In this document: positions 6,310-63,965 of the stretch, one piece after another
Layout of the letters: each line of letters starts with the position of its first letter
How positions within the stretch are numbered: the first letter of the stretch is position 1
NCBI RefSeq assembly: GCF_016862575.1
Contig: NZ_BONF01000012.1
Location: 62,001 to 126,000 of the forward strand
Length of the DNA stretch: 64,000 nt
Origin: Catellatospora bangladeshensis
GTDB taxonomy: Bacteria; Actinomycetota; Actinomycetes; Mycobacteriales; Micromonosporaceae
Direction of reading: 5' to 3'
Position numbers and translations under genes: made by a program
The notes under the pieces: generated by a model
What the model saw: only the letters and a program-made list of their open reading frames with translations
What the model was told of the DNA's origin: nothing
Database searches by the model: none

Positions 6310-8478
6310 ATGGGCGTCGTTCAGATCGTCAGCACGGTCGTCGCGCTGGCCGTGACCGCGGTCGCGGTGGTGCTCGTCGTGCGGGCGGTGCGGCAGATGC
6401 TCGCGGTGATCCGGCTGGGCCAGCCTGACCCGACACGCTCCGGCGACCGGGGCGCGCGCTGGAAGACCATGCTGACCGAGACGTTCGGCCACACGAAGAT
6501 GTTCAAGTGGTCGGTCGTCGGCGCGGCGCACTGGCTGGTGATGATCTCCTTCATCATCCTGTCCACGCTCGTGGCCGGCGCCTACTTCGAGGTGGTCAAC
6601 CCGGCGTGGGAGCTGCCGATCGTCGGCGGCTGGGACGTGTTCGCGTTCGTCACCGAGTGGATCGGCATCCTGGGCATCCCGGCGATCCTCGTGCTGATCG
6701 CGATCCGGCTGCGCCAGCGCCCGAACAAGCAGTCCAACTCGCGCTTCGCCGGCTCCACGATGTGGCAGGGCTACTTCGTCGAGTACATCATCATCACGGT
6801 CCTGGTCCTGGGCTTCCTGATCCGGGGATTCAAGGTCTCGTCCGGGCTGTTCCACCACCCGGCGTGGGCCACCCCGCTGTCGCACGCGCTCGGCGCGGTG
6901 CTGCCCGCCTCGCTGACCGCGATCACGGTCGTCGCGCTGATCAAGATCTGTGTGTCGATGGGCTGGGCGATCACCATCGGCCTCAACCCGACCATGGGTG
7001 TGGCCTGGCACCGGTTCCTCGCCTTCTTCAACATCTACTTCAAGCGTTACGCCGACGGCGCGCCCGCGCTCGGCGCGCTCAAGCCGATGACCTCCAACGG
7101 CGCCCCGATCGACCTGGAGGAGGCCGACCCGGAGAAGGACACCTTCGGTGTCTCCCAGGTCGAGCACTTCGGGTGGAAGGGGCTGCTCGACTTCTCGACC
7201 TGCACCGAGTGCGGCCGCTGCCAGTCGCAGTGCCCCGCCTGGAACACCGGCAAGCCGCTGTCGCCGAAGCTGATCGTCCTGTCGCTGCGCGACCACGCCT
7301 ACGCCAAGGCCCCCTACCTGCTGGCCGGTGGCGGCAAGGACCTCACCGGCGAGGAGAAGGGCACCGCCGAGCAGCTCGCCGGGGTCAACGTGCTCGCGCT
7401 GGCCGAGGCCGAGCGTCCGCTCATCGGCGGCGCCGCCGAGCTGGGCGTCATCGACCCGGACGCACTGTGGTCGTGCACCACCTGCGGGGCGTGCGTGGAG
7501 CAGTGCCCGGTCGACATCGAGCATGTCGACCACATCGTCGACATGCGCCGCTACCAGGTCATGATCGAGTCGTCGTTCCCGTCCGAGGCCGGGGCGATGC
7601 TGCGCAACCTGGAGAACAAGGGCAACCCGTGGGGCGCCCCGCCGAACACCCGCGAGGACTGGACCAAGGGCCTGGACTTCCCGGTGCCGCGGGTCGGCGA
7701 GGTCGACGAGTTCGAGTACCTGTTCTGGGTCGGCTGCGCCGGCGCGTTCGAGGACAAGGCCAAGAAGACCACCCGCGCCGTGGCGAGCCTGCTCAACGAG
7801 GCCGGGGTGAAGTTCGCGATCCTGGGCAACAACGAGACCTGCACGGGCGACCCGGCGCGGCGGATCGGCAACGAGTTCGTGTACCAGATGCTCGCCCAGC
7901 AGAACGTCGAGACGATCAAGGAAAGCGGCGCTCTGAAGATCGTCGCGACCTGCCCGCACTGCTTCAACACCCTCGGCAACGAGTACAAGGAGCTCGGCCT
8001 GGAGGTCGAGGTCGTGCACCACACCGAGCTGCTCGCGCACCTGGTCAAGACCGGCAAGCTGACCCCGGTCGCACCGGTCGACGGCGGGCTGACCTACCAC
8101 GACCCCTGCTACCTCGGCCGCCACAACCGCGTGTTCACGCCGCCGCGCGAGGTCCTCGGCGCAGCCATCGGCGCGGGCGCCACCAGCTCCGCGGGCGACG
8201 GCACCGGCATCCTGGAGATGGGCCGCCGCGAGGAGCGCTCGTTCTGCTGCGGCGCGGGCGGCGCCCGCATGTGGATGGAGGAGCGCATCGGCAAGCGGAT
8301 CAACGTCGAGCGCACCGAGGAGGCCCTGGCCACCGGCGCGAAGACGATCGCCGTGGGCTGCCCCTTCTGCTCCACGATGATCACCGACGGCGTCCGCTCC
8401 AAGGGCCAGGAGGACGTCGAGGTCATCGACGTCGCCACCGTCCTGCTCCGCTCGGTGAAACCCACCCCCGCGGCCTGA
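6310..8478 (+). CDS. etfD: Membrane Fe-S oxidoreductase, EtfD-like (CCG domains)
   Basis: This 722-residue protein joins several N-terminal membrane helices (about residues 1-240) to two 4Fe-4S motifs (CTECGRCQSQCP near 299 and CTTCGACVEQCP near 391) and two cysteine-rich CCG domains (CPHCFN and CCGAGG). The order matches mycobacterial Rv0338c/EtfD, which passes electrons from the electron-transfer flavoprotein, reduced by acyl-CoA dehydrogenases, to the quinone pool. The function is by homology. ATG at 6310 is preferred to GTG at 6304 because GGGAGG lies seven bases ahead of the ATG. The upstream operator is shared with fadE5, which fits beta-oxidation. It stands alone; etfA and etfB are not in the window. 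Confidence 0.88.
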   Translation: MGVVQIVSTVVALAVTAVAVVLVVRAVRQMLAVIRLGQPDPTRSGDRGARWKTMLTETFGHTKMFKWSVVGAAHWLVMISFIILSTLVAGAYFEVVNPAWELPIVGGWDVFAFVTEWIGILGIPAILVLIAIRLRQRPNKQSNSRFAGSTMWQGYFVEYIIITVLVLGFLIRGFKVSSGLFHHPAWATPLSHALGAVLPASLTAITVVALIKICVSMGWAITIGLNPTMGVAWHRFLAFFNIYFKRYADGAPALGALKPMTSNGAPIDLEEADPEKDTFGVSQVEHFGWKGLLDFSTCTECGRCQSQCPAWNTGKPLSPKLIVLSLRDHAYAKAPYLLAGGGKDLTGEEKGTAEQLAGVNVLALAEAERPLIGGAAELGVIDPDALWSCTTCGACVEQCPVDIEHVDHIVDMRRYQVMIESSFPSEAGAMLRNLENKGNPWGAPPNTREDWTKGLDFPVPRVGEVDEFEYLFWVGCAGAFEDKAKKTTRAVASLLNEAGVKFAILGNNETCTGDPARRIGNEFVYQMLAQQNVETIKESGALKIVATCPHCFNTLGNEYKELGLEVEVVHHTELLAHLVKTGKLTPVAPVDGGLTYHDPCYLGRHNRVFTPPREVLGAAIGAGATSSAGDGTGILEMGRREERSFCCGAGGARMWMEERIGKRINVERTEEALATGAKTIAVGCPFCSTMITDGVRSKGQEDVEVIDVATVLLRSVKPTPAA

Positions 8479-8484
8479 CCCTCA

Positions 8485-8563
8485 AGACCATCCGACCTGC
8501 CTGGCACATGGGCGAATGCGCGACCAAGATACGCACAAGTGCCAGGCAAGTCGGACGATCAAA
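8485..8563. repeat. Dispersed palindromic element, copy A
   Basis: This 79-bp imperfect palindrome starts 7 bases after the etfD stop. Its reverse complement aligns along its length, loop included, with copies at 39931-40006 and 62304-62384. Outer arms contain GACTTGCCTGGCA-type sequence; the centre holds GCGTATCTTG and CGCATTCGCCCAT on the minus strand. Confidence 0.85.
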
Positions 8564-8627: not shown

Positions 8628-9935
8628 GTGCTGTCTGAGTTCCTGTACATCCTGCTGTTCGTCCTGCTCACCCTCGGCACGGCGTTCTTCGTGGCGGCCG
8701 AGTTCGCGCTCGTCACGGTCGACCGGGCGGAGATCGACACGCGGGCGGAGCGGGGTGAGCGTCCCGCGCGGACGGTGCGCCGGGCGCTGCGCGAGCTGTC
8801 GTTCCAGCTGTCGGGGGCGCAGCTCGGCATCACGCTGACCGCGCTGCTCACCGGTTACCTCGCCGAGCCCGCGCTGCGGCCGCTGGTCGAGCCGATGGGC
8901 CTGTCCGCGGGCTGGAGCCACGCGATCTCGCTGGGTATCGCGACCCTGTTCTCGATGCTGTTCGGCGAGCTGGTGCCGAAGAACGCGGCGCTGTCCCGGC
9001 CGATGCCGGTGGCGCTGCGCACGGCCGGTCCGATGCGGGTCTTCTCCAACGTCTTCAAGCTGCTGATCAACGCGCTCAACGAGACGGCGAACTGGCTGGT
9101 GCGCCGGATGGGCATCGAGCCGCAGGAGGAGCTGGCCAGCGCCCGCTCGCCGGAGGAGCTGGGCCTGCTGGCGGCGATCTCGGCGCAGGCCGGCGCGCTG
9201 CCGACGGAGACGGCGCTGCTGTTGCAGCGCACGGTGCGGTTCAGCGACAAGCACGCGGCCGAGGCGATGACGCCGCGCATCGACGTGGTGGGGCTGGCCG
9301 GCTCGGCGACGGTCGCCGAGCTGTTCGACGCGGTACGCGAGACCGGGCACAGCCGGTTCCCCGTGTACGAGCAGACGCTCGACACGGTCACCGGGGTGGT
9401 GTCGGTCAACGACGCGCTCGCGGTGCCCCCGGCCCGGCGTGCGCTGACCACGGTCGCCGCGGTGGCCCGGGAGCCGGTGCTGGTGCCGGGCTCGCTGGAC
9501 CTGGACAAGGTGGTCGCGGCGCTGCGCGCGGGCCGGTCCGACTTCGCCATCGTGGTCGACGAGTACGGCGGCACGGACGGCGTGGTGACCATCGAGGACC
9601 TGGTCGAGGAGCTGGTGGGCGAGATCGCCGACGAGCACGACACGGCTGAGGAGGAGGAGTCCGGCTCGATCGAGGTGACCGTGCCGGGCGGCGTGCGCAC
9701 CTGGCTGGTCGACGGCATGCTGCGCGAGGACGAGCTGGACGAGCAGACCGGCTTCCGGCTGCCGGAGGGCCCGTACGAGACGCTGGGCGGCTTCCTGATG
9801 TCGGAGCTGGGCCGGATCCCGGCGGTCGGCGACACGGTGCTGGCCAACGACTGGGAGTTCACGGTGGTGGAGATGGACCGGCACCGGGTGGAGCAGGTGC
9901 GGCTGGTGCGGCTGGCGGGCGACGACGATGAATGA
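8628..9935 (+). CDS. CNNM/DUF21 and CBS domain membrane protein with CorC tail
   Basis: This 435-residue protein has four N-terminal membrane helices of the DUF21/CNNM type (containing AEFALVTVDR and ELVPKNAALSRP), a CBS pair in the middle (from about ARSPEELG to VDEYGGTDGVVTIEDLVEELVGEI) and a C-terminal CorC_HlyC domain. The family is linked to magnesium or cobalt transport, although old annotations say hemolysin. GTG at 8628 is used; the best ribosome site (GAGGTGAT) is about 13 bases away, so the start is less certain. Its end overlaps the next gene by 8 bases, so the two are coupled and probably work as a pair. Confidence 0.9.
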   Translation: MLSEFLYILLFVLLTLGTAFFVAAEFALVTVDRAEIDTRAERGERPARTVRRALRELSFQLSGAQLGITLTALLTGYLAEPALRPLVEPMGLSAGWSHAISLGIATLFSMLFGELVPKNAALSRPMPVALRTAGPMRVFSNVFKLLINALNETANWLVRRMGIEPQEELASARSPEELGLLAAISAQAGALPTETALLLQRTVRFSDKHAAEAMTPRIDVVGLAGSATVAELFDAVRETGHSRFPVYEQTLDTVTGVVSVNDALAVPPARRALTTVAAVAREPVLVPGSLDLDKVVAALRAGRSDFAIVVDEYGGTDGVVTIEDLVEELVGEIADEHDTAEEEESGSIEVTVPGGVRTWLVDGMLREDELDEQTGFRLPEGPYETLGGFLMSELGRIPAVGDTVLANDWEFTVVEMDRHRVEQVRLVRLAGDDDE

Positions 9936-34974: not shown

Positions 34975-35019
34975 ACGCACCGAGACACGCGGGTGCGTCC
35001 ACCAACGGGTGAGCCCGGG

Positions 35020-35072
35020 TTAAGAAGGGCACCTTCTACAACGCATTGCGTTAAGAAGGTGCCCTTCCTTAA
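35020..35072. repeat. Palindromic cruciform element before dcd
   Basis: TTAAGAAGGGCACCTTCT and AGAAGGTGCCCTTCCTTAA are inverted copies with one inserted base. AACGC/GCGTT pairs in the centre. Each arm also contains AGAAGG-CCTTCT symmetry. Similar AAGAAGG palindromes are, from memory, scattered in Micromonosporaceae genomes. Confidence 0.8.
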
Positions 35073-39366: not shown

Positions 39367-39888
39367 ATGGCTCCGCTGTCGGGCGCCGATACGCGCCCAC
39401 GCACCCTCGTACTGCTGCGTCACGCCAAGGCCGACCGCCCGGCGGGGGTGCCCGACGCCGACCGGCCGCTGACCGACCGCGGCCACGCCGACGCCGCCGC
39501 CGCGGGCGCCTGGCTGGTCAACCAGGGTTACGTCCCTGATCTCGTGCTCTGCTCGCCCTCCCGGCGCACCCGGCAGACCTGGCACGCCGTCGCGCTCGCG
39601 CTCGCGGGCGCCGGCTCACCGGTGGTCCACTACGAGCGCCCGCTGTACGAGGGCTCGCCCGAGGACCTGCTCCAGGTCATCCACGAGGCGCCGCCCGAAC
39701 ACCGCACCGTCCTGCTGATCGGCCACAACCCGGCCATCTCGCAGCTCACCGAGCAGCTCAGCGCGGGCAGCGGCGGGGTGGACTCCGACGGCCTGCGGAC
39801 CTGCGGCATCGCCGTGCACCAGACCGACACCGACTGGTCCGCCACCGAGACCGCCAAACTCATCACCACCCACACCCCCCGCGCCTGA
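39367..39888 (+). CDS. sixA: SixA-type phosphohistidine phosphatase
   Basis: This 173-residue member of the histidine phosphatase superfamily carries the catalytic start TLVLLRHAKAD (RHG-type with Ala for Gly, as in SixA), the second-shell Arg in SPSRRTRQTW, the Glu in LYEGSPEDLL and the second His in LIGHNPAIS. SixA removes phosphate from phosphohistidine. ATG at 39367 is used without a clear ribosome site; the hydrophobic core begins after residue 12. Its last 25 codons end almost wholly in C. Dispersed element copy B lies 43 bases downstream. Confidence 0.9.
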   Translation: MAPLSGADTRPRTLVLLRHAKADRPAGVPDADRPLTDRGHADAAAAGAWLVNQGYVPDLVLCSPSRRTRQTWHAVALALAGAGSPVVHYERPLYEGSPEDLLQVIHEAPPEHRTVLLIGHNPAISQLTEQLSAGSGGVDSDGLRTCGIAVHQTDTDWSATETAKLITTHTPRA

Positions 39889-39930
39889 CCCGCCTCTCCC
39901 GACCCGACCCGGCCCCGCCGCGCCGCGCCG

Positions 39931-40006
39931 CGATCATCCGACTTGCCTGGCAAACGGGCGTATCTTGACCGCGCATTCGCCCATCTGCCTGGCAAGTCGA
40001 GCGATC
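39931..40006. repeat. Dispersed palindromic element, copy B
   Basis: A 76-bp imperfect palindrome in the gap between convergent sixA and the hemolysin III gene. It shares GACTTGCCTGGCA, GGGCGTATCTTGACC, GCATTCGCCCATCTG and CCTGGCAAGTCG with copies A and C. Confidence 0.87.
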
Positions 40007-40053
40007 TTGGCGCCGGGGGGCGAGGCGGAGCCGGGCCGGGCGGGGCGGGTGGG

Positions 40054-40728
40054 TTAGGCGAAGAGGGCGAAGTAGATGGCGATGTGGTGGCAGAGCGCGG
40101 CGACGAGGGTGCAGGCGTGGAAGAACTCGTGGTGGCCGAAGACCTCGGGCCACGGGTTGGGGCGCCGCAGCGCGTAGAAGACCGCGCCGACGCTGTACGC
40201 CGCGCCGCCGACCAGAAGCAGGACCAGCGCGGTGACGCCGCCGTTGCGCAGGATGTCGGGCAGCACGGCGACCGCGACCCAGCCCAGTGCCAGGTACAGC
40301 GGGGCGGACACCCAGCGCGGCGCGTGCGGCCAGATCAGCGACATGGCCGCTCCGCCGACCGCGCCCGCCCACACGAGCGCCAGCAGCAGCGCGGCCTTGC
40401 CCGAGGGCAGCAGGAGCAGGCAGAACGGGGTGTACGTGCCCGCGATGAAGATGAAGATCATGGCGTGGTCGAGCCGCCGCATGAGCTGGTAGCCGCGCTC
40501 GCTCCACACCCGCCGGTGGTAGAGCCCGCTGACGCCGAACAGCCCGCACACGGTGAGGCTGTAGACGGCGACGCTGAGCACGGGTGTGGTGCCGGGCCGG
40601 AACGCGGCGATCGAGACGAGCACGATGCCGCAGACCAGGGCGACGAAGAAGGCGTACGCGTGCAGCCAGCCGCGCATTCGCGGCTTGCCGATGTCGACGG
40701 GGCGCAGACGGGTGGCGGTGCCGTTCAT
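40054..40728 (-). CDS. Hemolysin III/TrhA (PAQR) family membrane protein
   Basis: This 224-residue protein has seven membrane helices. The family's conserved parts are visible: GVSGLYHRR, DHAMIFIFIAGTYTPF and the C-terminal GHHEFFHACTLVAALCHHIAIYF, with the His residues that bind zinc in the PAQR fold. Bacterial TrhA proteins help keep membrane energy and lipid order; the hemolysin label is historical. ATG at 40728 precedes a GAGGGCATG context with weak ribosome site. It is divergent from pxpB, with a TTAC-N6-GTAA palindrome in the shared promoter region. Its leftward end faces element copy B. Confidence 0.9.
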   Translation of the reverse strand: MNGTATRLRPVDIGKPRMRGWLHAYAFFVALVCGIVLVSIAAFRPGTTPVLSVAVYSLTVCGLFGVSGLYHRRVWSERGYQLMRRLDHAMIFIFIAGTYTPFCLLLLPSGKAALLLALVWAGAVGGAAMSLIWPHAPRWVSAPLYLALGWVAVAVLPDILRNGGVTALVLLLVGGAAYSVGAVFYALRRPNPWPEVFGHHEFFHACTLVAALCHHIAIYFALFA

Positions 40729-41377: not shown

Positions 41378-42278
41378 GGTGATCGCCCCCGGCCCGCTGG
41401 CCACCGTCCAGGACCTGGGCCGCTTCGGCTACGCCCAGCTCGGCGTCTCCCGCTCCGGCGCCCTCGACCCCGCCGCCCTGCGCCTGGCCAACCGCCTCGT
41501 CGGCAACCCCGAAACCGACGCCGCCCTCGAACTCACCTACGGCGGCACCGTGCTGCGCGCCCACGCCCCCCTCTGGTGCGCCCTCACCGGCGCCCCCGCC
41601 CCCCTCACCGTCGACGGCCACCCCGCCCCCTACGGCGCCCCCTTCGCCCTCCCCACCGGCGCCCTCCTCACCATCGGCACCCCCACCCACGGCATCCGCA
41701 GCTACCTGGCCCTCGCCGGCGGCCTCCCCATCCCACCCGTCCTCGGCTCCCGCAGCACCGACACCCTCTCCACCCTCGGCCCCCCACCCCTTTCCCCCGG
41801 CACCACCCTCCCCACCGCCACCCCTCCCGCGCCGATCTTGCGTGAGCTGTGGGGACGACACGCGCCTACCGGGCAGAACGGCAACACTTCGCGCAAGATC
41901 GGCGCGGTGGACTTCGTGCCGTGGAGCGCGCCCGGGGCGGAGATCCGGGTGAGGGTGCGGTTCGGGCCGCGGGAGGGGTGGTTCGCGGAGCCGGGGGAGT
42001 TGCTGCGGCGGGTGTACACGGTGGGGCAGGGGGACCGGATCGGGGTGCGGCTGGACGGGCCGCCGCTGGCCCGCGCGATCGCGGGGGAGCTGCCCAGTGA
42101 AGGGCTGGTCGCGGGGGCGGTGCAGGTGCCGGGGGACGGGCGGCCGCTGGTGTTCCTCGCCGATCACCCGACCACCGGCGGATACCCGGTGATCGCGGTC
42201 GTGCACCCCGCCGATCTCGGGCTGCTCGCCCAGGCGCGGCCGGGCACTAGGGTGGTCTTCCATGGATCTCAACGCTGA
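41370..42278 (+). CDS. pxpC: 5-oxoprolinase subunit PxpC (KipA family), with internal palindrome
   Basis: This 302-residue subunit has the start VIAPGPLATVQDLGRFGYAQLGVSRSGALD and GGTVLRAHAPLW typical of the biotin-dependent carboxyltransferase/KipA group, and the C-terminal segment GGYPVIAVVHPADLGLLAQARPG. The gene overlaps pxpB and pxpA. A 77-bp palindrome at 41829-41905 lies in frame in the middle, adding about 26 residues (PILRELWGRHAPTGQ onward) in a weakly conserved linker. Before it nearly all codons end in C; after it most end in G. The frame is intact, so the protein is probably functional. Confidence 0.92.
   Translation: MLEVIAPGPLATVQDLGRFGYAQLGVSRSGALDPAALRLANRLVGNPETDAALELTYGGTVLRAHAPLWCALTGAPAPLTVDGHPAPYGAPFALPTGALLTIGTPTHGIRSYLALAGGLPIPPVLGSRSTDTLSTLGPPPLSPGTTLPTATPPAPILRELWGRHAPTGQNGNTSRKIGAVDFVPWSAPGAEIRVRVRFGPREGWFAEPGELLRRVYTVGQGDRIGVRLDGPPLARAIAGELPSEGLVAGAVQVPGDGRPLVFLADHPTTGGYPVIAVVHPADLGLLAQARPGTRVVFHGSQR
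41829..41905. repeat. 77-bp palindromic insertion inside pxpC
   Basis: Terminal arms GCGCCGATCTTGCG and CGCAAGATCGGCGC are perfect 14-bp inverted repeats. The size matches the dispersed element, but the sequence differs. Confidence 0.88.
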
Positions 42279-61147: not shown

Positions 61148-62308
61148 TTGAAGGTCGTCGTCGCCCACAACCGGTACCGCTCCGAGCTGCCCTCGGGTGA
61201 GAACGTCATCGTCGACCAGGAGATGGCGCAGCTCGCGGCGGCCGGGGTCACCGTGCTGCCGTTCCTGCGCAACTCCGACGACATCCCGTCGCTGTCGGCC
61301 GCGCAGAAGGTGCTGCTGCCGATCTCCCCGATCTGGGCCCCGGCCGCGCAGCGCGACCTCACCGCGCTGCTGAAGCGGGAGCGCCCGGACGTGCTGCACC
61401 TGCACAACCCGTACCCGCTGCTGTCGCCCTGGGTGGTGCGGACCGCGCACGCCCACGGGGTGCCGGTGGTGCAGACCGTGCACAACTACCGGCAGGTCTG
61501 CGCGCCCGGCCTGTACTTCCGCGACGGCCACGCCTGCCACGAGTGCCGCGGGAAGGCGTTCGCGCTCCCGGCGATCAAGCACAAGTGCTACCGCGGCTCC
61601 ACCGCGCAGAGCGCGATCATGGCGACCACGCTGGCCGTGCACCGCGGCACGTGGCGCTCGGTCGACCGGTACATCGCGCTGACCGGCGCCATCGCCGACC
61701 ACCTGCGCGACTTCGGCATCCCCGACGAGCGCATCGTGGTCAAGCCCAACGGCGTCGACGACCCCGGCCAGCCCGCCCAGCCGGGCGAGGGCCTGCTGTT
61801 CGTCGGCCGCCTGTCTCCCGAGAAGGGTCTCGGCCTGCTGCTCGACGCCTGGCGGCGGCACCCCGACGGCTCGCTCGGCACGCTGCGCATCGTCGGCGAC
61901 GGCGAGCTGCGCCCGCTGGCCGAGCAGGCCGCGGCCGAGCGCCGGGACGTGGAGTTCCTGGGCCCGCAGGACCGGGCGGGGGTACGCGCCGCGTTCCGCG
62001 CCTCGGCCCTGTTCGCCGCCCCGTCGACCTGGCACGACGTGCTGCCCACGGTGATCATCGAGGCGCTGGCGTCCGGCCGTCCCGTCATCGGCACCACGCT
62101 GGGCGGCATCCCGTACCTGATCGACACCGCCGGTTTCGCCGTCCCGCCCACCGCCGAGGACTGGGCCGCCGCCCTCCCCGACGCCCTCAAGGCGGCCCCC
62201 ACCCTCTCCGACACGGCCCGCCGCCGCTACGAACAGACCTTCCACCCCGACGTCGTCACGTCAAAACTCCTCGCCGTCTACGACTCCCTCCGCCGCCGCC
62301 CCGCTTGA
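61148..62308 (+). CDS. GT4 family glycosyltransferase
   Basis: This 386-residue GT-B enzyme has an N-terminal domain (KVVVAHNRYRSELPSGENVIVDQE, LHLHNPYPLLSPWVV) and a C-terminal nucleotide-sugar domain with LLFVGRLSPEKGLGLLLDAW and STWHDVLPTVIIEALASGRPVIGT, where Glu is the conserved donor-binding residue. A Cys-rich loop (GHACHECRGKAF) is common in this subgroup. TTG at 61148 follows GGGAGCAG and begins the conserved fold. The sugar and acceptor are unknown; exopolysaccharide synthesis is likely given the sugar transferase 1.1 kb away. Its stop codon lies at the edge of the palindromic element copy C. Confidence 0.9.
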   Translation: MKVVVAHNRYRSELPSGENVIVDQEMAQLAAAGVTVLPFLRNSDDIPSLSAAQKVLLPISPIWAPAAQRDLTALLKRERPDVLHLHNPYPLLSPWVVRTAHAHGVPVVQTVHNYRQVCAPGLYFRDGHACHECRGKAFALPAIKHKCYRGSTAQSAIMATTLAVHRGTWRSVDRYIALTGAIADHLRDFGIPDERIVVKPNGVDDPGQPAQPGEGLLFVGRLSPEKGLGLLLDAWRRHPDGSLGTLRIVGDGELRPLAEQAAAERRDVEFLGPQDRAGVRAAFRASALFAAPSTWHDVLPTVIIEALASGRPVIGTTLGGIPYLIDTAGFAVPPTAEDWAAALPDALKAAPTLSDTARRRYEQTFHPDVVTSKLLAVYDSLRRRPA

Positions 62309-62384
62309 TCGTCGGACTTGCCAGGCACCTGGGCGTATCTTGACCCGCCATTCGCCCATCTGCCTGGCAAGTCGAACGATCAAG
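62304..62384. repeat. Dispersed palindromic element, copy C
   Basis: An 81-bp imperfect palindrome. Its ends CTTGATCGT and ACGATCAAG are symmetric, and it includes the stop codons of both convergent flanking genes. It aligns with copies A and B. Confidence 0.9.
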
Positions 62385-63828
62385 AAGGGTCGGCGTACAG
62401 CGCCGGGAGATCGACCAGGAGGACGCCTTCGGCGTTCGCGACCTTACGTAGCTCGTCGGTGAAGCCGGCGCCGCTGTAGCAGGCGAGCCGGGTGCGGGCG
62501 ACACGGTGCCCCTTGGCGGCGAGCAGATCGCGTGCGCGGCGGAGCCGGTCCAGGTGTGCGATGCCCATCGTCTGCCGCCACTTCGCCTCGCCCAGTGACA
62601 GCACCGCTCCATCGGTGCCGAGCACCGCGACGTCGATCTGGATCTGGGTACGTGCGGCCTGGTCGGCGACGGTGCCCGCCGCGACCGTGCTCGGTGGCTC
62701 GCCGAACAGGGTGTACGCGTTGCGCAGCGCGAACTCCCGGCACAGCTGCTCGAAGTGGGGTCCGACCACCTGGGCCCGGAAGGTCTCCTGCCCGGCCTGC
62801 CAGGCCTGCTCGGCCATTCCGCGCTCCAGGAAACTCCAGTTGCGGCGCATGACCGCCGAGTAGAACGTGATCAACGGCTCGGCGATCCGGTAGGTGGATC
62901 TGCCGGTCCGGAATGCGTCCGGCTCCTTGGCGACCAGGCCGCAGTCCTCCAGCACGGTCAGCGGGTGCCCGATGTTCGTGGAGGGCCGCTCCAGGTAACC
63001 CGCGATGCCGCCACGGGTGTTGTGGCCGAGCGCGATGGCGCCGAGCACCCCGTGATACAGCGGGGTGTCCCGGGCTCCGGTCTCCTCCGCGAGCAGGTAT
63101 CGCGCCTCCCGGAACAGCGGGACCGCCGGGTTCAGCACGGTGCGGATCACCCAGGAGTCGAAATCGCCGAGGCCCGCCGGAGCGTCGGAGTGGACGAACT
63201 CGTGACGGTAGGCCGGGGTGCCGCCGACGATGCTGTGCAGGAGAACCGCCAGCTCAGGCTGGTCGGCCACCCCCCAGAACTCGGCGGCCGTGCGGTAGTC
63301 CATGGGCGGCACGACCAGTTCCAGGCTGGCACGCCCTCGTAGTGGGGCGTTGCCCGCCAGCAGGTTGCCCATCACGGCCATGGCCGAGCCGCAGACCAGC
63401 AGCTTGGATGACGTCTCTCGGGCCACTCCGCCGGGGTCGAGCACGTGCTGGAGCTGGGAGGCGAGAGAGGGGCTGGCCGACAGCAGGTAGGGAAGCTCGT
63501 CGATGATGATCAGCCCATCCGGCACCACCGCGTACAGCCGTCGCAGCGCCTCCTCCCAGCTGTGCAGCTCGAACGCGCCGCCGGTGCCGGCGCGGGCTGC
63601 CAGCGCCCGCCCGAAACGGCGCAGCGACTCCAGCTCGGTGTCCTCGGTAGCCGCGAAGTAGAAGCCGTCGGTGGCTCGGGCCAGCGCATCCAGCAGGAAG
63701 GTCTTCCCCTGGCGGCGTCGCCCGCTGACCACCCCGAACCTCGCACTGGCCGCGGGGGACGTCGCGAACCTCGCGAGCGCCTCCCACTCGGCATGGCGAT
63801 CGAACACGGCTTCAGGCTTGGCAAGCAT
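62380..63828 (-). CDS. AAA ATPase with PD-(D/E)xK nuclease-like tail (DUF234 group)
   Basis: This 482-residue protein has an archaeal-type ATPase domain (residues about 1-230) with Walker A VSGRRRQGKTFLL and Walker B GLIIIDELPYLL. A winged-helix linker follows, then a C-terminal domain with IDVAVLGTDGAVLSLGEAKWRQ, in which Asp and GEAKW fit the PD-(D/E)xK nuclease pattern. These proteins are scattered and mobile among prokaryotes, and their role is unknown; defence or plasmid maintenance is possible. ATG at 63828 has no ribosome site; a TATAGT box lies 8 bases ahead, so it is probably leaderless. The promoter has A/T-rich repeats unlike its surroundings. Confidence 0.88.
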   Translation of the reverse strand: MLAKPEAVFDRHAEWEALARFATSPAASARFGVVSGRRRQGKTFLLDALARATDGFYFAATEDTELESLRRFGRALAARAGTGGAFELHSWEEALRRLYAVVPDGLIIIDELPYLLSASPSLASQLQHVLDPGGVARETSSKLLVCGSAMAVMGNLLAGNAPLRGRASLELVVPPMDYRTAAEFWGVADQPELAVLLHSIVGGTPAYRHEFVHSDAPAGLGDFDSWVIRTVLNPAVPLFREARYLLAEETGARDTPLYHGVLGAIALGHNTRGGIAGYLERPSTNIGHPLTVLEDCGLVAKEPDAFRTGRSTYRIAEPLITFYSAVMRRNWSFLERGMAEQAWQAGQETFRAQVVGPHFEQLCREFALRNAYTLFGEPPSTVAAGTVADQAARTQIQIDVAVLGTDGAVLSLGEAKWRQTMGIAHLDRLRRARDLLAAKGHRVARTRLACYSGAGFTDELRKVANAEGVLLVDLPALYADPS

Positions 63829-63880: not shown

Positions 63881-63901
63881 AACCGGCACCGGTGCGCAGC
63901 C

Positions 63902-63965
63902 CCGCAGTTTCGGGGAAAGTGCGCTCTAGGGAGCGCGCGAAGCCGCAGTTTCTCTGAAACTGCGC
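63902..63965. repeat. Paired short hairpin repeats
   Basis: CCGCAGTTTCGGGGAAAGTG (from 63902) and CCGCAGTTTCTCTGAAACTG (from 63943) are related hairpins 41 bases apart, each closing with GCGC. Between them GCGCTC/GAGCGC forms a third stem. Confidence 0.65.

Follow-up and report, generated by a model that had tools for sequence, protein, structure and literature searches.

An 81-bp palindromic repeat at gene ends in the genus Catellatospora

At positions 62304 to 62384 of the DNA analyzed here, a 64,000-nucleotide stretch of the Catellatospora bangladeshensis genome (the window), two genes converge on an 81-bp near-palindrome, termed element A. The question raised by this locus is what kind of element it is and what it may do where genes end. 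The initial annotation had named three copies in the window, and all three were found to be present and to align end to end; the positions given for them were roughly right, while the exact bounds were slightly shifted, since each copy spans 81 bp. A profile scan of the contig detected no fourth copy of element A in the window. The copies, together with the parts of the third one and the stop codons within it, are as follows.

62304-62384, plus strand: element A copy 3, an 81-bp near-palindrome with convergent neighbours
62304-62314, plus strand: left outer arm of copy 3, columns 1-11, CWWGATC... (alignment A3)
62315-62327, plus strand: left inner arm of copy 3, GACTTGCCAGGCA, with the small palindrome TGCCWGGCA inside
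62331-62335, plus strand: upper stem GGGCG of copy 3, partner of 62353-62357
62336-62342, plus strand: conserved unpaired core TATCTTG of copy 3
62349-62352, plus strand: second conserved loop part of copy 3, CATT (consensus CWTT)
62353-62357, plus strand: upper stem CGCCC of copy 3
62361-62373, plus strand: right inner arm of copy 3, TGCCTGGCAAGTC
62374-62384, plus strand: right outer arm of copy 3, columns 71-81 (alignment A3)
62306-62308, plus strand: TGA stop of the plus-strand gene 61148-62308, built from terminal bases of element A
62380-62382, minus strand: stop codon of the minus-strand gene 62380-63732, within copy 3
39929-40009, plus strand: element A copy 2, between the convergent genes 39367-39888 (plus) and 40054-40728 (minus); core at 39961-39967
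8483-8563, minus strand: element A copy 1, between the tandem genes 6310-8478 (plus) and 8628-9935 (plus); core at 8525-8531, minus strand

The unit consists of CWWGATCGTCCGACTTGCCWGGCACNYGGGCG, the core TATCTTG-N6-CWTT and the inverted arm (alignment A3). It measured 81 bp, without gaps and with sharp ends, in all 30 aligned copies from the source genome (G000), and an apparent 1-nt insertion was seen in one copy of another genome of the genus, G010. The inner palindrome TGCCWGGCA recurs in each arm, so that element A is built as an inverted pair of short palindromes. The RNA fold of the 62304 copy reached -51.9 kcal/mol (z -10.6), a value equalled by none of 200 shuffled sequences, and its DNA fold -30.8. 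In some copies (L004, L007, L021 and others), C-rich left and G-rich right flanks lengthen the palindrome.

The loop had been described as conserved where structure alone would not require it. This needed correction in part, as GGGCG and CGCCC form a stem and only TATCTTG, N6 and CWTT are unpaired, but the core is indeed conserved beyond the needs of pairing: TATCTTG was exact in 23 of the 31 copies detected from the arms only in five unselected blocks, lay within one mismatch in 27 and carried two mismatches in the other four. Further, in a set of 78 copies that included own-genome loci, with 50 copies at loci retrieved by searching for the whole element, the core was exact in 68 and had one mismatch in 6 and two in 4. 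Over these 78 copies, entropy was 0.18 bits in the core, 0.14 in the upper stem and 0.24 in the inner arms; CWTT had 0.55 and N6, the only variable part of the spacer, 1.28.

A search of the whole genome for more copies, which had been suggested at the outset, was amply rewarded. A covariance model of element A (R1) gave at least 150 scored matches in the 8.8-Mb source genome, corresponding to at least 133 distinct places, a lower bound given that a known copy (C12:29242) is not among the matches listed; with this number of places, chance is excluded. The family was present in all 11 genomes of the genus, with 79 to at least 150 matches each, both strands counted, and at least 150 in seven of them. 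When R1 was run over 150 genomes of the Micromonosporaceae, with stricter filters and on the best 31 candidates per genome, so that weak relatives may be missed, 12 genomes had a match, namely the 11 of the genus and one of the 139 others, which had two weak matches. An exact pattern retrieved 30 stretches from named public genomes, and each of these belongs to Catellatospora. In the sister genome G006, whose proteins have a median identity of 98% to those of the source genome, an exact 16-base arm, TCCGACTTGCCWGGCA, occurred 104 times, while the reversed control occurred 0 times. Element A is a genus-specific repeat.

Two side observations belong here. Among the 100 of the 104 G006 places that are listed, exact arms were sparse at approximately 4.8-7.4 Mb of G006:C1 compared to the rest of the chromosome. 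In the genome outside the genus (G028; L238, L239), one weak match had A-like arms and another core, and the second was a lone palindrome of 41 bp, CAAGATC...TGCCTGGCA...GATCTTG, which may represent a monomeric form.

The three window copies had been reported to lie after a plus-strand gene, which is right for each of them; as convergent genes flank two of them, a gene end on each strand adjoins there. Genes were taken from our own codon-score caller rather than from an annotation. Among 81 copies of element A (52 from the own genome and the rest from relatives, chosen by the own-genome profile and some of them orthologous), 40 were convergent, 39 tandem, 1 divergent and 1 inside a called gene. 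Relative to intergenic length, 28% of which is divergent space, this corresponds to a depletion from divergent gaps (p 1e-10) and an excess in convergent ones (p 3e-10). The terminal bases of the element supplied the stop codon of a neighbour in 12 of the 81 copies, and those of the 62304 copy did so for both neighbours.

Element A, a GC-rich hairpin after a stop codon, has the hairpin of an intrinsic terminator. A T-run (5 T in 8 nt) was present on none of the 162 sides of the 81 copies, whereas ordinary intergenic hairpins had one in 42 of 828 cases, and the mean number of T in the flanks was 0.64 versus 2.35; for want of the T-run, element A is no canonical intrinsic terminator. A second terminator scan also returned 0, but it covered loops of 3-8 nt only, and the 17-nt loop of element A is beyond its reach. 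A promoter search gave 0 sites at the 62304 copy.

Element A is accompanied by other palindromes. We analyzed syntenic blocks of 240 or 640 kb from five genomes of the genus (G000, G006, G001, G010 and G007) with a hairpin scan made without the A motif, which found 38-46 strong hairpins per 240-kb block versus 0-2 in triplet-shuffled sequence. They included at least six further multi-copy families with unrelated arms, designated B, C, D, F, G and H, plus E, and their abundance differed by clade: 640 kb of G007 contained 21 copies of C and 0 of B, and 640 kb of G001 contained 13 of B and 7 of C. The exact C arm, GCAGTTTCGGGGAAASTGC, was present in every one of the 11 genomes of the genus, with between 9 and 344 hits in each, and in none of the other 139 genomes of the family. 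The E hairpins, of about 44-56 bp, began -2 to 16 nt from a stop in 17 of 18 cases, and family E looks like an ordinary terminator. It resembles element A in being a gene-end hairpin, and is seldom found together with A, B or C at convergent genes; element A differs from it in its greater length, T-poor flanks and conserved core. Three of these families have members in the window, to which no strand is assigned.

63900-63964: family C member, with arms GCAGTTTCGGGGAAASTGC
41827-41907: family F member, with GATCTTGCG arms, inside a gene according to our caller
35019-35071: family E hairpin GAAGGGCACCTTC..., terminator-like elsewhere and divergent here by the gene call

Parts of the element A core recur in these families. 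A similar core, GAATCTTGG...ATTC, was present in 9 of the 21 G007 copies of C, under arms unrelated to those of A, and was absent from the C copies of G006 (0 of 6) and G001 (0 of 7). The hexamer ATCTTG was dense in family F and in family D of G006 and G001, and was not found in B, E, G or H, nor in the D copies of G007. This distribution gives a hint that copying or binding machinery might see the ATCTTG core.

Compensatory changes among copies, proposed initially as a mark of a mobile element or a functional RNA, were weak within the own genome: pair 20/62 was unpaired in 15 of 30 copies, and 72 of 500 shuffles had at least as many pairs with changes on both sides. They were stronger across the G006, G001 and G007 clades, where 72 cells were changed on both sides while shuffles gave 47.7 ± 6.0 and slid versions no more than 17, counts that are inflated by shared ancestry; the joint change of the arms from GAC/GTC to GAG/CTC is one example. 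Two of the five cross-clade measures, namely how many pairs had changed and how many pair types occurred, were not above those of shuffles.

These results bear on the suggestion that the element functions in RNA. A strand-specific function was rejected, because the core showed no orientation bias, with 24 of 39 tandem copies having it on the sense strand (p 0.20), and it failed further on two orthologous sites where the element is inverted between species (G010 block positions 124797 and 173619 versus G000 block positions 124304 and 177605). No Rfam family matched at the element at the gathering threshold, the only match in the window being a tRNA. A functional structured RNA, of which the loop core TATCTTG would be read in the transcript, is consistent with the conservation of the core in the arm-detected block copies, with the similar core under unrelated arms in G007 copies of C and with the pairing kept across clades, but it is at odds with the missing strand bias and the two inversions, with the Rfam result and with the absence of the core from the 13 C copies of G006 (6) and G001 (7), and we rank it as the least probable of the readings considered here.

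The lack of strand preference would equally suit a double-stranded DNA site for a dimeric protein, such as a nucleoid, topology or recombination factor, for which TGCCWGGCA would provide half sites and the core another site. In 15 of 30 own-genome copies, the central W of each TGCCWGGCA does not pair with its counterpart, as would be expected for two separate palindromic sites, and several proteins reportedly bind REPs, according to the abstract of PMC2817692. Against this, the arms change together between clades with pairing kept, which a fixed site would not need, and element A is exchanged with B and C, which have arms unrelated to its own; we therefore consider a protein site very improbable.

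This exchange is visible at the window copies themselves. At the site of the 8483 copy, the orthologous junction carries A in G006, B in G001 and G010 and a variant A in G007. At the 39929 site, A is found in G000 and G006, B in G001 and G010 and nothing in G007, and at the 62304 site A is found in G000, G006 and G001, A in inverted orientation in G010 and C in G007, with a C copy besides A in the corresponding gap of G006.

Different families occupied the same junction more often than expected in all three comparisons between clades: 11 versus 4.0 junctions for G006/G001 (314 junctions, p 7e-6), 10 versus 6.6 for G006/G007 (308 junctions, p 0.02) and 9 versus 4.6 for G001/G007 (326 junctions, p 0.002), these block-based p values being too small because ancestry is shared between blocks (G000/G006 and G001/G010). 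The test used pairs of neighbouring orthologous genes, grouped into strata by their orientation and by the gap that remains once elements are subtracted, and covered different-family sites at convergent and tandem junctions with family E set aside. A first permutation, within raw gap-length bins that included the element, had shown no significant excess (p 0.24, 0.05 and 0.15), and was judged to be over-conditioned since the length of the raw gap is set by the element. A G006 site of A that had another family in G001 had B there in 5 of 6 cases (p 0.006). Between the close relatives G006 and G000, no exchange was observed among 14 junctions with elements in both. At G006 block position 376389, a similar C-rich/G-rich frame was seen though the elements, A in G006 and B in G001, differ.

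Sequence comparison of the copies at shared sites gave a different picture at short and at long distance. Orthologous A copies compared with G007 were 63-73% identical, other pairs between those clades averaging 66-68% and within-genome pairs 78-80%; there is no site-specific likeness with G007. Shared-site copies of G006 and G001 were 80-82% identical versus a between-clade mean of 75%, about equal to the within-genome means, and each was at or below its best own-genome paralogue; as this likeness exceeds the between-clade mean, concerted change is unsupported for that pair. Identity between G000 and G006 was 94% at one shared site, and the G010 copies were few, divergent and uninformative for likeness. 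Rewriting or re-insertion is indicated over the longer distance to G007 only, where rewriting may be the cause of the missing site-specific likeness, fast plain divergence of orthologues being the alternative.

We also determined whether ordinary hairpins accompany the elements. At convergent block junctions with gaps of 40 to 600 nt, another hairpin was present in 11 of 51 junctions with A, B or C versus 124 of 180 without a family element. The deficit persisted when elements were masked and junctions with gaps of 0 to 600 nt were matched by the gap left over, with 2 of 17 for A versus 8.5 expected and 14 of 51 for A, B and C together versus 26.8; junctions that carried only D, F, G or H were set aside, and the threshold of 10 used here and those of 9, 11 and 12 agree. 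The own-genome loci gave 7 of 26 convergent (15.4 expected) and 4 of 23 tandem (9.2 expected), with expected rates that were taken from the blocks; two of the 26 convergent loci (L001 and L021) lie inside the C12 block, and some other loci have orthologues in the G006 block. In the blocks, the tandem deficit was not significant (p 0.31).

In 23 convergent comparisons in which A, B or C is present in one species and the other has no family element, some sites being counted twice, an ordinary hairpin was present in both species in 5, only in the element-free species in 5 and in neither in 13. In 11 of these 13 hairpin-less comparisons, the genes of the element-free species were 0-25 nt apart, and the hairpin deficit may therefore partly reflect insertion into tight, hairpin-free junctions. 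Taken from its place and from the scarcity of ordinary hairpins, the function of element A would be termination or stabilisation.

The initial annotation had also suggested recent mobility. Species do differ by copies that were gained, lost or exchanged, as at G007 block position 223891, where A and C lie in a 284-nt convergent gap that measures 3-4 nt in four other genomes, but a clean insertion with a target-site duplication was recognised at none of 14 aligned sites. No autonomous source element with separated arms was recognised in 2.4 Mb of blocks, nor were clear solo arms found in them; the 640-kb G006 block had 13 single-arm matches within one substitution, 10 of which lie inside called genes, and we read these matches as chance. 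With regard to candidate enzymes, Y1/RAYT proteins (PF01797) had 0 matches in G000, G007, G008, G009 and G010 and 1-3 matches in the other six genomes of the genus, in frames mostly of 150-157 aa, two with an internal stop. A RAYT/IS200 mobiliser was accordingly rejected for G000.

Separately, a gene that by eye is DUF559/AbiEi-like, beside a gene that by eye is fumarase-like, is flanked on either side by a copy of element A in three clades (G006 block 327533-328713, G001 block 295036-296230 and G007 block 321885-323207). The idea that it acts as the mobiliser was dropped, PF04480 matching 4-7 times per genome in four genomes.

Could element A then be purely selfish, that is, a non-autonomous mobile element of MITE or REPIN type served by an enzyme in trans, found at gene ends through target preference and the purging of harmful insertions, with families sharing sites because these are common hot spots? 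Its fixed length and sharp ends, species-specific gains such as that in G007, the lineage-specific abundances of the families, the surplus of orthologous junctions shared by different families and the lack of the T-run expected of a terminator all speak for such an origin. We nevertheless consider it somewhat unlikely, as G000 and four other genomes of the genus have no Y1/RAYT, neither a clean empty site with target duplication at the 14 aligned sites nor an autonomous separated-arm element in the blocks was recognised, and the gap-matched hairpin deficit is not predicted by it, unless insertion avoids or destroys hairpins or favours tight junctions.

The reading that we prefer, with confidence slightly better than even, is that element A is a REP/REPIN-like, orientation-neutral gene-end hairpin, interchangeable with other families and copied without a RAYT in G000. 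Its hairpin would most likely protect the 3' end of the mRNA or aid T-run-free termination from one or both sides, and would occupy gene ends that have no ordinary terminator hairpins. It would be exchangeable with other palindrome families, above all B, and over longer times its sites may be rewritten or refilled with the current version of the lineage, by a copying process that would be independent of a RAYT transposase in G000. A gene-end hairpin of this kind would tolerate inversion, exchange and replacement by another family.

The name REP/REPIN-like requires qualification. Passages of PMC3116915 describe the REPINs of P. fluorescens SBW25 as inverted conserved ends that form one hairpin, with common spacings of 71 and 110 bp, and as extragenic elements of high copy number with compensatory changes and a spacer less conserved than the ends. 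Element A resembles them in its inverted short palindromic arms, single hairpin, fixed spacing and high copy number. In a broad sense it is also like REPs, being repetitive, palindromic and extragenic at 3' ends; REPs are described in parts of PMC3733652 as lying between convergent or unidirectional genes, near 3' ends, with element ends that give stop codons, and different REPs are stated there to occupy roughly one site, recB in two Xanthomonas species. It differs from RAYT-type REPINs, however, in that G000 has no cognate RAYT, the consensus has no GTAG tag, the spacer holds a conserved asymmetric core and the blocks contain no clear solo arms; as neither the transposase nor the tag nor a variable spacer was found, we do not class element A as a RAYT-type REPIN.

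Two other known systems were compared. CGTC-tagged REPs, according to passages of PMC3733652, are mostly from alpha-proteobacteria, form head-to-head dimers for the most part and have no dedicated transposase known. Element A shares the letters CGTC, in columns 7-10, but by eye has CGAC after them and no corresponding tail, whereas the stems described in those passages start with complementary AT and have tails that are mostly CCA; the main text of that paper has 0 mentions of actinobacteria, Streptomyces, Micromonospora, Frankia or Salinispora. The paired USS/DUS of Neisseria and Pasteurellaceae are described in parts of PMC1852404 as inverted pairs enriched in tail-to-tail positions, with an argued use as terminators. 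Element A likewise is a genome-wide inverted-pair repeat enriched at convergent genes, but it lacks the T-run, versus A/T tails in the passages on USS/DUS, and its unit is the full 81-bp element. No published description of element A was found in the open-access literature, which was the scope of the search, most subscription journals lying outside it.

Most REP-type repeats in the literature considered are proteobacterial, and many of them are linked to RAYT transposases. Here, several abundant palindrome families occur in an actinobacterial genus, 5 of whose 11 genomes have no RAYT. With different families at the same gene ends and ordinary hairpins scarce there, comparison of sister species can test selfish passengers against swappable 3'-end signals. 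A further-reaching idea, which we hold to be distinctly doubtful, is that Catellatospora possesses a set of interchangeable gene-end modules, with every lineage multiplying its own families (A in G000 and G006, B in G001 and G010, C plus a variant A in G007) and overwriting others at the same junctions by non-RAYT machinery, possibly one that recognises the ATCTTG core common to A and part of the C copies of G007. Were this true, gene-end signals would be a mobile and replaceable part of the genome, and if these palindromes end or protect transcripts, they would constitute a natural collection of orientation-neutral 3'-end parts.
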